Origin: Dyella sp. 2HG41-7
GTDB taxonomy: Bacteria; Pseudomonadota; Gammaproteobacteria; Xanthomonadales; Rhodanobacteraceae
NCBI RefSeq assembly: GCF_021390675.1
Contig: NZ_JAJEJV010000004.1
Coordinates: 1,550,001 to 1,614,000, forward strand
Direction: 5' to 3'
Length of the DNA stretch: 64,000 bases
Positions 44,926 to 47,926 of the stretch are shown piece after piece. The position numbers and the translations under genes were made by a program. Below the pieces are notes generated by a model. That model saw only the letters and a program-made list of their open reading frames with translations, was not told where the DNA came from and made no database searches. Each line of letters opens with the position of its first letter. Position 1 is the first letter of the stretch.

Positions 44926-45483
44926 ATGAACAAAAAAATGCTGTTGATCCCTATGTTGGCGCTGATCATGACGTCCACGGGCGCGATGGCGCAGCAAGGG
45001 GGTTATCCGCCTCCGGTGCCTCCGCCTGGCTCTGCCGGGCCGGACAATGCGCACTATGCGTGGGCCGACGTGTTGCGCGTGGATCCGGTTTACGGCGTCG
45101 CCCGCACGGCGACGCCGAGCCAGCAGTGCTACGACCAGCAGGTGGTGCAGCAGACGCCGAGCAACAAGGGCATCGGCACCGTGCTGGGCGCGGTGGTCGG
45201 CGGTGTGCTGGGTAGCACCATCGGTCACGGTCGCGGCAATACCGCGGCGACCGTGGGCGGTGCGGTGGTCGGCGGCGCGGTCGGCAATTCGGTCGCCAGC
45301 GGCGGCCAGACGTATACCAGCGACCAAACGGTGTGCCAGCCGGTCACCCAGGTTGCAGAACAGCGTCAGATCATCGGTTACGACGTGGAGTATCGCTATC
45401 ACGGCGACGTCTATATGTCGCGCCTGAGCTACGACCCGGGCGAGCGCCTGCGGGTGCGGGTGAGCGTGTCGCCCGCCGACTAA
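44926..45483 (+). CDS. Secreted glycine-zipper 2TM-domain protein
   Basis: A 185-residue envelope protein. A signal peptide (MNKKMLLIPMLALIMTSTGAMA) is followed by a Pro/Gly-rich stretch and a glycine-zipper segment (IGTVLGAVVGGVLGSTIGHGRGN and a second TVGGAVVGGAVGNSVA, residues about 84-122), as in Rickettsia 17-kDa antigen-like proteins. Two cysteines flank the zipper (SQQCYDQ and TVCQPV). The C-terminus is a short beta region. The family is linked to outer-membrane integrity, with no defined activity. The ATG at 44926 has GGAGG; a longer frame from 44884 is rejected because the signal peptide begins here. Confidence 0.82.
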   Translation: MNKKMLLIPMLALIMTSTGAMAQQGGYPPPVPPPGSAGPDNAHYAWADVLRVDPVYGVARTATPSQQCYDQQVVQQTPSNKGIGTVLGAVVGGVLGSTIGHGRGNTAATVGGAVVGGAVGNSVASGGQTYTSDQTVCQPVTQVAEQRQIIGYDVEYRYHGDVYMSRLSYDPGERLRVRVSVSPAD

Positions 45484-45504: not shown

Positions 45505-45541
45505 AGCGACCGTCGCTGCTGGCGCGGTCGCTTTTTCTTTT
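45505..45541 (+). terminator. Intrinsic terminator after the glycine-zipper gene
   Basis: Stem AGCGACCG / CGGTCGCT with a 12-nt loop and a T-rich tail. Because it ends the upstream transcript, the second terminator at 45757 must belong to a separate transcript starting in between. Confidence 0.82.
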
Positions 45542-45618
45542 TTGTCAGATGCGTTCCTTTCCTGTTGCATAGCAGCGAAAATCCAGTCATGATGAACGTT
45601 CAACCGCCCGGAACCCTC

Positions 45619-45723
45619 ATGTCTTCAGCCGTCTATACCGCCACTGTACTCACCAGCGCCCGCATGGCCGCTGGCATGACGTCGCGTGCGCGCCGACCGC
45701 TGGACCGACATCTGGCCGGGTAG
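45619..45723 (+). CDS. Putative Arg-rich leader peptide of the arginine operon
   Basis: A 34-codon ORF (ATG 45619, TAG 45721) upstream of argF. Five codons specify Arg, four of them within eight residues near the end (RARRPLDR; CGT 45685, CGC 45691, CGA 45694, CGA 45706). GGAA lies 5 nt upstream of the ATG; an in-frame ATG at 45589 would lengthen it by 10 codons. A perfect dyad TGAACGTTCA (45593-45602) lies just upstream. Its last codons can pair with the downstream terminator arm (see the attenuator entry). Coding status is inferred from architecture; no homologue is known to me. Confidence 0.6.
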   Translation: MSSAVYTATVLTSARMAAGMTSRARRPLDRHLAG

Positions 45724-45784
45724 GCTGTCGCCACGTTGCATGTGTAGTACGACGACAAAACCCGGCCTTTGCGCCGGGTTTTTT
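45714..45784 (+). promoter_or_regulatory. Candidate transcription attenuator controlling argF and the arg-pro cluster
   Basis: The terminator is AAAACCCGGC / GCCGGGTTTT (45757-66 / 45773-82, loop CTTTGC) with a T-run, ending 22 nt before argF. An alternative 8-bp helix pairs GGCCGGGT (45714-45721, the last leader codons) with ACCCGGCC (45760-45767), which includes the terminator's left arm, so the two structures exclude each other. A ribosome reaching the leader stop would cover 45714-45721 and favour termination; one stalled at the first clustered Arg codons would leave it free and favour read-through. This fits classical amino-acid attenuation. Confidence 0.65.
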
Positions 45785-45806
45785 GCTTTTCTGACTGGAG
45801 TCAACG

Positions 45807-46814
45807 ATGTCGCTTCGTCATTTTCTCACCACCCAGGATTACAGCCGCGCCGAAATCGACGCGCTGCTTGAACAAGCGGCCGCGTTCAAGCGTTCGCCGC
45901 GCGGTCAGCAGCTTGCTGGCAAATCGGTGGCGCTGCTGTTCTTCAATCCTTCGATGCGTACGCGTACGAGTTTCGAATTGGGCGCGTTCCATCTCGGCGG
46001 TCACGCGATCGTGCTGTCGCCAGGCAAAGATGCATGGCCGATCGAATTTCGCCCCGGCGTGGTGATGGACGGCGAAGCGGAAGAACACATCGCCGAAGTG
46101 GCGCGTGTGCTGAGCCGCTATGTCGATCTGATCGCCGTGCGCGCGTTTCCGAAATTCCAGGATTGGTCGGTCGATCGCGAAGACGCCGTTATCAAGGCAT
46201 TCGCGCAATACGCCACCGTGCCGGTGATCAATATGGAAACGATCACGCATCCGTGTCAGGAACTTGCGCACGCGCTGGCGTTGAAAGAGCGCTTCGGCGA
46301 TCTCACTGGTCGCAAATACGTGCTCACGTGGACCTATCATCCCAAGCCGCTGAACACCGCCGTCGCCAATTCGGCGCTGCTGATCGCCACGAAAATGGGC
46401 ATGGATGTGACGCTGCTTTGCCCGACGCCGGATTACGTCTTGGACGAGCGCTATATGGCCTTCGGCGAGCAGAATGCGAAGGAAAACGGCGGCTCGCTCA
46501 AAGTCAGCCACAACATCGAAGAAGCGTATCGCGGCGCCGATGTGGTCTACGCCAAGAGCTGGGGCGCGCTGCCGTTCTTTGGTCGTTGGGAAGGCGAAAA
46601 GCCGATTCGCGATGCGCACAAGCATTTCATCGTCGACGAAGCGAAGATGGCGCTCACCAACAATGGCGTTTTCAGTCATTGCCTGCCGTTGCGCCGTAAC
46701 ATCAAAGCCACCGATGCCGTGATGGATTCGCCTGCATGCATCGCCATCGACGAAGCCGAAAACCGCCTGCACGTGCAGAAGGCGGTGATGGCGTCGTTGC
46801 TCGGTCAGCGCTGA
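45807..46814 (+). CDS. argF': N-acetylornithine carbamoyltransferase (ArgF')
   Basis: A 335-residue transcarbamylase. The carbamoyl-phosphate loop is FFNPSMRTRTSFELGA; HPCQELAHALAL and HCLPLRR follow. Glu92 and a lysine at about 300 (carboxylated in the Xanthomonas enzyme) match the N-acetyl-L-ornithine transcarbamylase of Xanthomonas campestris, which makes N-acetylcitrulline, rather than classical ornithine transcarbamylase. GGAG lies 6 nt before the ATG. First structural gene after the putative attenuator. It implies a route in which the acetyl group is removed after carbamoylation, by the ArgE-type enzyme three genes on. Confidence 0.93.
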   Translation: MSLRHFLTTQDYSRAEIDALLEQAAAFKRSPRGQQLAGKSVALLFFNPSMRTRTSFELGAFHLGGHAIVLSPGKDAWPIEFRPGVVMDGEAEEHIAEVARVLSRYVDLIAVRAFPKFQDWSVDREDAVIKAFAQYATVPVINMETITHPCQELAHALALKERFGDLTGRKYVLTWTYHPKPLNTAVANSALLIATKMGMDVTLLCPTPDYVLDERYMAFGEQNAKENGGSLKVSHNIEEAYRGADVVYAKSWGALPFFGRWEGEKPIRDAHKHFIVDEAKMALTNNGVFSHCLPLRRNIKATDAVMDSPACIAIDEAENRLHVQKAVMASLLGQR

Positions 46815-46827
46815 GTCGGGGCGCGCG

Positions 46828-47460
46828 ATGTATCTGCCCAAGTCTTTCCACGAAACGCGCGCCGACGTGTTGCACGCGCTAATGCGCGACTATCCGTTCG
46901 GAACCGTTGTTATGCACGGCGCAGACGGATTCGTTGCGAACCATCTGCCATTCGAATTGATCGGCGATGGTTCGTTGCACGGGCACGTCGCGCGCGGCAA
47001 CGAATTGGCGAACGCCGATGGCGCGGAAGTATTGGTGATTTTTCAGGGCGCAGACGGTTACATCAGTCCCAACTGGTATCCCAGCAAACACGAAACCGGT
47101 CGCGAAGTGCCCACGTGGAATTACGCGGTGGTGCATGTGCATGGTCGTCTTCGCGTCGTGAACGACAAAGCGTGGTTGCGGCAGTTGCTGGAACGGCTGA
47201 CCGATCGTCACGAAGCCTCGCAACCCAAGCCATGGCATGTCGGCGATGCGCCGGACGATCACATCGAAAAGATGCTGCAGATGATCGTGGGCATCGAGAT
47301 CGACATCGAGCGCATCGTAGGGAAATTCAAGCTGAGCCAGAACCATCCCGACGCCAATCGCGCAGGCGTTCTGAAGGGATTGGCTGATCGCGGCGGCCGT
47401 CGCGACAAGGAATTGGCCGAACTGATGCAAGAAGCGGAGGAGCGTCGACATGGCGGGTAA
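46828..47460 (+). CDS. PaiB-family FMN-binding protein
   Basis: A 210-residue protein with a split-barrel fold as in PaiB: MYLPKSFHETR at the start, GFVANHLPFEL, GADGYISPNWYPSKHETGREVPTWNY (flavin-site region, shown in part), and KLSQNHPDANRAGVLKGL near the end. Bacillus PaiB was described as a negative regulator of sporulation and degradative enzymes; members bind FMN. It starts 13 bp after argF and overlaps the OsmC gene by 11 bp, so it is part of the arginine cluster, which is not typical for arginine metabolism. Confidence 0.85.
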   Translation: MYLPKSFHETRADVLHALMRDYPFGTVVMHGADGFVANHLPFELIGDGSLHGHVARGNELANADGAEVLVIFQGADGYISPNWYPSKHETGREVPTWNYAVVHVHGRLRVVNDKAWLRQLLERLTDRHEASQPKPWHVGDAPDDHIEKMLQMIVGIEIDIERIVGKFKLSQNHPDANRAGVLKGLADRGGRRDKELAELMQEAEERRHGG

Positions 47461-47926
47461 GCAGCACCAGTATCCGGTCGAAGTGGTGTGGACCGGCAAC
47501 CACGGCACGGGCACCAAAACCTATCAAGGCTATGGTCGCGAGCATGAGGTTCGCGTCGCGGGCAAGCCTGTGATCGCTGGTTCGTCCGATGCCGCGTTTC
47601 GCGGCGATGGCGCGAAACACAATCCGGAAGATTTTCTGGTTGCCGCGTTATCGAGCTGCCACATGCTCTGGTATCTGCATCTTGCAGCAGCGGCGGGCGT
47701 TGTCGTGACCGCTTATGTCGACGAGGCCGTCGGCAACTTGCTCGACGAAGGTCAGGTCGGGCGCTTTACCGAAGTGGTGCTTCGTCCGCGCGTCACTGTC
47801 AGCGCGGACAGCGATGCCGACGTCGCCAAGCGCGTGCACGACGATGCGCATCACGCCTGCTTTATTGCCAACTCCGTCAATTTCCCCGTGCGCTGCGAAC
47901 CGCGCATTGTCATCGAATCCGTGTAA
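47450..47926 (+). CDS. OsmC/Ohr-family peroxide-detoxifying protein
   Basis: A 158-residue OsmC-superfamily protein. The first catalytic Cys is in FLVAALSSCHMLWYLHLAA; the second in DDAHHACFIANSV. N-terminal VVWTGNHGTGTKTY differs from Ohr, so it belongs to a third OsmC-like subgroup rather than to Ohr itself (encoded at 2886-3317). It probably reduces organic hydroperoxides. It overlaps the PaiB-like gene and precedes argG by 27 bp. Confidence 0.87.
   Translation: MAGKQHQYPVEVVWTGNHGTGTKTYQGYGREHEVRVAGKPVIAGSSDAAFRGDGAKHNPEDFLVAALSSCHMLWYLHLAAAAGVVVTAYVDEAVGNLLDEGQVGRFTEVVLRPRVTVSADSDADVAKRVHDDAHHACFIANSVNFPVRCEPRIVIESV

Follow-up and report, generated by a model that had tools for sequence, protein, structure and literature searches.

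We examined the region ahead of the arginine biosynthesis gene argF in a 64,000-nucleotide stretch of the Dyella sp. 2HG41-7 genome (contig NZ_JAJEJV010000004.1, positions 1,550,001 to 1,614,000), hereafter the window, whose numbering is used throughout; all features described lie on its plus strand. The genome is near-complete (4 contigs, completeness 99.99), and the closest named match of its ArgF is to Dyella flava, at 99%. The gene argF (45807..46814) encodes an N-acetylornithine carbamoyltransferase (NF003384, 611 bits against a cut-off of 288) and is the first gene of an operon. Domain matches downstream of it identify an FMN-binding gene, an OsmC gene, argG, a fused acetylglutamate kinase/synthase, argH and a proB-like kinase; the FMN-binding-domain gene and the OsmC gene stand between argF and argG (46828-47923), and additional frames lie between the operon genes. 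The element under study is the short leader that precedes argF.

The gene upstream of this leader ends at 45483 and is followed by a terminator-like stem-loop with a T-run (45505..45541), in agreement with an earlier note on this DNA that had assigned that gene a terminator of its own; our scan places the structure at 45512-45528 plus tail, and a longer stem (45505-45532) can be seen by eye. Next comes a promoter that in Dyella is predicted only (45565..45593), with TTGCAT at 45565-45570, a 17-nucleotide (nt) spacer and CATGAT at 45588-45593. The leader peptide open reading frame (ORF; 45619..45723) has 34 codons plus TAG and encodes MSSAVYTATVLTSARMAAGMTSRARRPLDRHLAG; five of its codons specify Arg, four of them inside codons 23-30, as the earlier note had described. 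Its core, M-T-S-R-A-R-R (45676..45696), contains the Arg codons CGT, CGC and CGA, which we interpret as the sensor. The leader peptide has no NCBIfam or Pfam match.

Four RNA segments complete the layout. Segment 1 (approximately 45694..45708, from the R-P codons CGA CCG onward) is the predicted partner of segment 2 when no ribosome is present, as the folds of relatives suggest. Segment 2 (GGCCGGGT, 45714..45721), the putative antiterminator 5' strand, begins 20 nt past the first base of the CGA codon. Segment 3 (ACCCGGCC, 45760..45767) could pair with segment 2, giving the antiterminator, or with segment 4, giving the terminator; its complementarity with segment 2, already pointed out in the earlier note, is exact over 8 nt. 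Segment 4 is the right arm of an intrinsic terminator hairpin (45757..45782; 10 pairs, 6 of them G-C, loop of 6), which is followed by a T-rich tail. The 10-bp stem reported previously is real, and its end lies 24 nt upstream of the argF start at 45807, not 22. We consider it very probable, judging from sequence comparison, that this leader is a ribosome-mediated, arginine-specific transcription attenuator of the arginine operon. This reading, proposed in the earlier note, is supported by the ORF of relatives, by covariation, by a layout shared with further families and by the ArgR search of the genome described below.

The comparison with relatives begins with the peptide. A first set of 80 named loci (from Dyella, Rhodanobacter, Frateuria, Luteibacter, Fulvimonas and metagenome-assembled genomes) was gathered via ArgF alone, so that the leader played no part in their selection, and an ORF bearing GMTSRARR lies ahead of argF in all 80. 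Across 250 sampled genomes of the order, whose families are labeled f1 to f12 here, the core DNA pattern matches 119, namely 116/118 in families f1-f4 and 3/132 in f5-f12; these family tallies were summed by hand, and the adjacency of part of the leaders to argF was judged by eye from coordinates. The two genomes of f1-f4 without a match have no assembled DNA upstream of argF, and the three sites in f5-f12 lie over other genes and were rejected as argF leaders. Extra pattern sites away from argF leaders (L119, L120, L122, L165, L166, L197 and L206 among them) were judged to be chance occurrences, with L119, L165 and L166 overlapping long frames of other genes. A stricter core pattern gave six matches in 369 genomes of the class, five of them within this order; the sixth, outside it (G626:C219:332-354, L223), sits within a stretch of long reading frames. 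Removal of identical stretches reduced 174 leader loci to 162 distinct leaders, among which 73 of the 80 named loci remain, and in every one of the 162 an in-frame ATG or GTG is found 14-26 codons ahead of the core Met.

Of the 162 leaders, 158 were placed on an argF tree, the other 4 having no long argF reading. No amino-acid change occurs on this tree at the core codons A(-6), A(-3), M, T, S, R, A, R or R, and synonymous changes number 34 at Ala(-3), 37 at Thr and, for the Arg, Ala and Arg of the core, 20, 15 and 19; the corresponding means for argF are 7.6 amino-acid and 20.6 synonymous changes per codon. Because the search patterns required M, T, R, A, R and R (one also Ser), the zero count is partly circular for loci found by pattern, which does not apply to the 80 ArgF-selected loci. 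The conserved stretch does contain variable positions, with 12-17 residue changes at -5, -4 and -2 and two at Gly(-1); outside the core, residues change 17-48 times at codons -14 to -7 and 8-55 times at codons +7 to +11. At Ser TCG, the last Arg CGA and Pro CCG even the nucleotides are frozen, with 1-2 synonymous changes for each of these three codons, compared with 4-46 for invariant Ser, Arg and Pro codons of argF. These patterns indicate that the leader ORF is under coding selection.

Codon choice in the core is also restricted. The 486 core Arg codons of the 162 leaders comprise 175 CGT, 160 CGA, 151 CGC and no CGG, under a core pattern that ruled out AGA/AGG but allowed CGG, and the last core Arg is CGA in 159/162 leaders. 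In argF of the same loci, CGG makes up about 8-13% and CGA about 0-1% of the Arg codons. One tRNA-Arg, with anticodon ICG, reads CGU, CGC and CGA, which makes its charging the likely signal, and the repeated use of these codons yields a sharp prediction, namely that a single tRNA is read. As for the frozen CGA-CCG pair, it is reported as an inhibitory codon pair in yeast in the accessible text of PMC6379720, and its conservation here could equally be explained by segment 1.

A terminator was recognized by our own detector in 162/162 distinct leaders. The segment that pairs best with its left arm begins 16-21 nt downstream of the final core Arg codon, counted from the first base of that codon, in 156/162 (standard deviation 1.2), a spacing that, given the usual ribosome footprint, would let a ribosome at the Arg cluster free segment 2; the stop codon moves between +6 and +30 relative to the last core Arg (standard deviation 4.0) while the antiterminator spacing stays. 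The duplex of segments 2 and 3 (2:3) is better than 95% of 60 shuffles of its own leader in 139/162 leaders (f1 99/104, f2 35/47, f3 0/3, f4 5/8), and the antiterminator is weaker in f3 and f4, with 6-8 pairs there. The usual pair is GGCCGGGT/ACCCGGCC in f1 and GCTGGGT/ACCCAGC in f2. Mean 2:3 duplex energies, with the loop cost left out, are -17.6, -13.1, -12.7 and -12.1 kcal/mol in f1, f2, f3 and f4, and mean terminator hairpin energies are -15.3, -16.5, -16.5 and -18.0 kcal/mol.

Covariation was counted in an alignment of 51 rows, consisting of the window and 50 sequences hand-picked from 133 distinct combinations. The terminator helix (3:4) is paired in 100% of cells and the 2:3 helix in 94.6%, with 22 doubly changed cells, a count reached by 0/500 shuffles and compared with at most 2 in slid controls. 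Parsimony lists five C-G/T-A double switches and two one-sided (G-U) states; three double switches are trusted, those of L168 (a differently placed duplex) and L188 (5 pairs, no better than shuffles) being discounted. In alifold runs that represent a ribosome at the last core Arg codon before segment 4 is made, 2:3 forms in f2, not in f1 or f4. Pairing of segments 1 and 2 is predicted in single-leader folds and in the f1 and f2 alifold, from which we infer a 1:2 hairpin. A separate observation, made by eye, is a second terminator-like copy after the attenuator terminator at some Rhodanobacter or related loci (L026, L049, L064).

Beyond these four families, f5, f7, f8, f11 and part of f10 have unlike leader peptides before argF, with Arg runs such as IRRLRRPG, LRRRRT and NPRRRRV and terminators mostly of the type ACCCAGCC...GGCTGGGT. 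We applied a test with fixed criteria (an Arg cluster, a terminator and an antiterminator within reach) to 36 loci of 132 sampled genomes, taken among the matches listed and with family f9 not included. It was passed by 22/36 loci (f5 3/3, f7 2/2, f8 15/20, f10 1/8, f11 1/1, f6 0/1, f12 0/1) and by 0.3% of mononucleotide shuffles, and the antiterminator lies 12-23 nt past the last Arg of the cluster. Since unrelated peptides share this layout, the arrangement seems to predate the MTSRARR peptide, its carriers being united by Arg codons plus the switch. The 22 leaders were located without a codon pattern; 86/87 of their cluster Arg codons are CGA, CGC or CGT, with CGA at 36/87 and none CGG. By comparison, argF from a separate set of eight deep-family loci has 32 CGG and 15 CGA among 167 Arg codons. 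At one f8 locus (L263/L218, G031), the entire Arg leader ORF occurs in tandem, its two copies ending at -276 and -90 before argF; one base right after the first copy is recorded as N.

These results also bear on one alternative, a constitutive partial terminator that sets the level of the operon, its Arg codons being a product of GC-rich DNA. High GC content does make Arg codons common, and the fold of the single sequence is unexceptional; we nevertheless find this scarcely credible, given that the arrangement arises in 0.3% of shuffles, that CGG is missing from all 486 core codons and that the antiterminator is conserved. As regards the comparisons suggested in the earlier note, the relatives revealed a conserved short ORF with clustered Arg codons, synonymous-only change in its core, covarying terminator and antiterminator stems and the same arrangement in further families. 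Homologues without the ORF or its Arg codons, which that note had regarded as counter-evidence, were not encountered in f1-f4, and this holds less well in the deeper families, as discussed below. What goes beyond that note is that the peptide itself is conserved in four families, that its codons are restricted and that the RNA is already catalogued as a small RNA (sRNA).

The catalogued RNA is Rfam family RF02242, "sRNA Xoo5," which is the same leader in the Xanthomonas branch. On the window the model scores 28.7 bits, below its gathering score of 50; on 18 loci, 14/14 from f2 score 62.8-144.2, 13 of them over the full model, and four from f1, f3 and f4 are not among the listed matches. The window leader also resembles four other Rfam families (rnk_pseudo, Glutamine, AaHKsRNA41, Hrs13), in each case below the gathering score, and these hits were treated as chance. 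According to the accessible text of PMC3039613, sRNA-Xoo5 of X. oryzae lies between PXO_00354 and PXO_00353, the latter an N-acetylornithine carbamoyltransferase; its 5' end was mapped by rapid amplification of cDNA ends (RACE), its length is 124 nt by RACE/clone, and its bands, of about 130 and 100, are reported to depend on growth phase. The words argF, leader and attenuator do not occur in the main text of that paper. Table 4 of the same source concerns the mutant of another sRNA, Xoo1, in which N-acetylornithine carbamoyltransferase and argininosuccinate synthase are among the lowered proteins.

In the Rfam alignment the leader AUG stands at model position 3, which leaves a 5' untranslated region of 2 nt if position 1 is the RACE 5' end; we equated the two because both model and RNA are 124 nt long. 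A transcription start downstream of 45721, which the earlier note had held to be incompatible with attenuation, was not seen in f1-f4; in the Xanthomonas branch the mapped 5' end precedes the leader AUG by 2 nt. At the right distance from that 5' end there is a weak -10 box, GAGGAT, and the promoter arrangement TTGC..-17-.....T recurs among relatives in a best-score search with no shuffle control. The leader start falls 6-10 nt after the predicted -10 box in 56/58 leaders of f2, f3 and f4 and 24-25 nt after it in 69/104 leaders of f1, both counts likewise having no shuffle control.

Homology to an RNA listed in Rfam as an sRNA (RF02242), together with the reported Northern bands, invites the explanation that a trans-acting sRNA of the Xoo5 type, with its own terminator, occupies this site and that the ORF is incidental. 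We judge this very unlikely, as the core changes only synonymously, the antiterminator covaries with the terminator and the position before argF is fixed. Beside attenuation, the leader RNA may still have an extra role in trans. For the attenuator itself, the consequence is that a catalogued sRNA would become the 5' part of a regulatory leader.

Regulation by a DNA-binding protein has to be weighed as well. The N- and C-terminal domains of ArgR, ordinarily the repressor of arginine genes, were not found in the Dyella genome, and ArgR control of the operon was rejected on that ground. Among 151 sampled genomes of the order, both domains are present in the same 8, all of f12, and were not found in 143; the one f12 argF upstream region examined has no such leader. 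In an f12 genome (G035:C17, 19494-19841 and 21061), ArgR is encoded on the strand opposite to argF, some 1.2 kb upstream of it, and no Arg leader was found before argF. Control by a repressor, with the leader as a minor addition, appears improbable given the confinement of both ArgR domains to f12, although our search covered ArgR alone and other regulators are possible. The attenuator offers a possible explanation of arginine control in families without a detected ArgR, which include relatives of Xanthomonas and Rhodanobacter.

In the mechanism that we propose for the attenuator, the leader would sense charged arginyl-tRNA, in all likelihood through the one tRNA-Arg that decodes CGU, CGC and CGA. 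Transcription would start at a promoter between the terminator of the upstream gene and the ORF (predicted in Dyella, with the 5' end mapped in Xanthomonas), and a ribosome would translate the leader peptide behind the polymerase. With ample arginine, the ribosome would reach the stop codon and cover segment 2, so that the 3:4 terminator would form and transcription would end before argF. When charged tRNA-Arg is scarce, the ribosome would halt at the CGU-GCN-CGC-CGA cluster, leaving segment 2, 16-21 nt further on, free to pair with segment 3 before segment 4 is made; no terminator would then form and the operon would be transcribed. If the leader is not translated, segment 1 is expected to hold segment 2, leading to termination. 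The ribosome position, the direction of the response, the role of segment 1 and the kinetic order of folding are what we infer from the arrangement.

Several observations weigh against this mechanism. When segment 4 is present, the same alifold calculation returns the terminator in f1, f2 and f4, so the antiterminator can prevail only if it forms earlier, as it does in classical attenuators, and the model needs folding during transcription. The 2:3 duplex does not beat 95% of shuffles at 23/162 loci (f1 5, f2 12, f3 3, f4 3); its covariation comes mainly from one column pair, two-sided change is limited to two column pairs, and shuffles equal both the number of pairs with double changes (210/500 shuffles) and the number of pair types (347/500). 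The fold of the whole leader is no more stable than its own shuffles (z = -1.48 and -0.62), and a strict sigma-70 scan finds no promoter at the window leader, the predicted boxes falling below the scan threshold; the support for the attenuator is comparative, and the single-sequence fold and promoter scan do not add to it. In the seven operon genes of the window, 8% of 163 Arg codons are CGA and 4% are CGG, so the codon contrast is weaker here than in argF across relatives. In the deeper families, 14/36 loci fail the strict test, five of them f8 loci in which an Arg-rich ORF and a terminator are present and a threshold is missed. Finally, the predicted terminated RNA of the Xanthomonas branch has 163-164 nt compared with 124 nt for Xoo5, whose cloned 3' end lies 7 nt ahead of the terminator stem. 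Being shorter and ending before the terminator, Xoo5 cannot simply be equated with the terminated product and may represent a processed 5' portion of the leader RNA.

A further difficulty is that pure codon sensing leaves the conserved M, T, S and neighboring A and G unexplained. Possibly the invariant peptide contributes to ribosome stalling in its own right. A tentative extension, which we regard as possible yet rather unlikely, is a hybrid in the Dyella-Xanthomonas branch, in which the nascent A-x-x-A-x-G-M-T-S-R-A-R-R, acting from within the exit tunnel, would slow the ribosome together with the rare CGA codon, so that three Arg codons suffice in place of the longer Arg runs of the deeper families. 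The conserved residues are located just before the putative stall site and conservation ends there, as would be expected, by analogy, of an arrest segment acting in the tunnel. If so, the leader would combine codon sensing with an arrest peptide of its own, in most of its families on a nearly leaderless mRNA; owing to the frozen peptide, it can be tested whether one element serves as codon sensor and arrest peptide at once.

Conservation of about 13 residues up to the putative stall site, largely at the amino-acid level, would also suit a different device, an arginine-induced arrest peptide halted by free arginine and not by uncharged tRNA. For TnaC, the accessible literature describes a ribosome halted by tryptophan. 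Such a halt at the Arg cluster would expose segment 2 and therefore turn a biosynthetic operon on at high arginine, which is the wrong sign, and the deep families retain the Arg cluster with unrelated peptides; we hold this explanation to be most improbable. Another possibility, again by analogy, is that the leader peptide acts in trans, as the accessible text of PMC7298713 reports for peTrpL.

Comparison with known systems helps to place the attenuator proposed here. The fungal arginine attenuator peptide, which arrests ribosomes in response to free arginine, is likewise an arginine-related upstream peptide and differs in being translational, dependent on arrest by free arginine and eukaryotic. 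In Salmonella, speF is preceded by the leader ORF orf34, whose product is called SpeFL. Among bacteria, this orf34 is the nearest arginine sensor that we found (PMC6386406); as far as the accessible text of that paper describes it, it resembles the argF leader in having a 34-codon leader ORF, adjacent Arg codons that sense the arginine supply and a conserved peptide domain. It differs in governing an ornithine decarboxylase through Rho-dependent termination, masking of the ribosome-binding site and RNase G decay (PMC6386406) and, in that text, has no intrinsic terminator of an arginine biosynthesis operon, unlike the argF leader. sRNA-Xoo5 (RF02242) shares place and strand with our leader, is a homologous RNA in the Xanthomonas branch and has the ORF from model position 3, whereas the accessible text of PMC3039613 presents it as an sRNA that is non-coding. 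In Pseudomonas, the carA leader (PMC4997734, accessible text) similarly has a leader peptide, reported in P. aeruginosa, with attenuation proposed for a gene of carbamoyl phosphate supply; there, attenuation is ascribed to pyrimidines and ArgR acts at the carA promoter. The main text of PMC2965389 makes no mention of arginine. Among the matches listed in the open-access literature, with subscription papers mostly outside the scope, we found no arginine leader-peptide attenuator of an arginine biosynthesis operon, which does not establish its absence in print.

The argF leader would extend leader-peptide attenuation to arginine. The classical amino-acid leader-peptide attenuators are those of the his, trp, thr, ilv, leu and phe operons. 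Like them, the argF leader has a short ORF containing codons for the product of the pathway, a choice between 2:3 and 3:4 pairing and an intrinsic terminator before the first gene. Unlike them, it is predicted to sense arginine, its core peptide is conserved beyond the sensing residue, and in f2, f3 and f4 the distance from the predicted -10 box to its start codon is 6-10 nt in 56/58 leaders. By analogy with these systems, we classify the element as having the anatomy of his- or trp-type attenuation, with arginine as the putative sensed residue.
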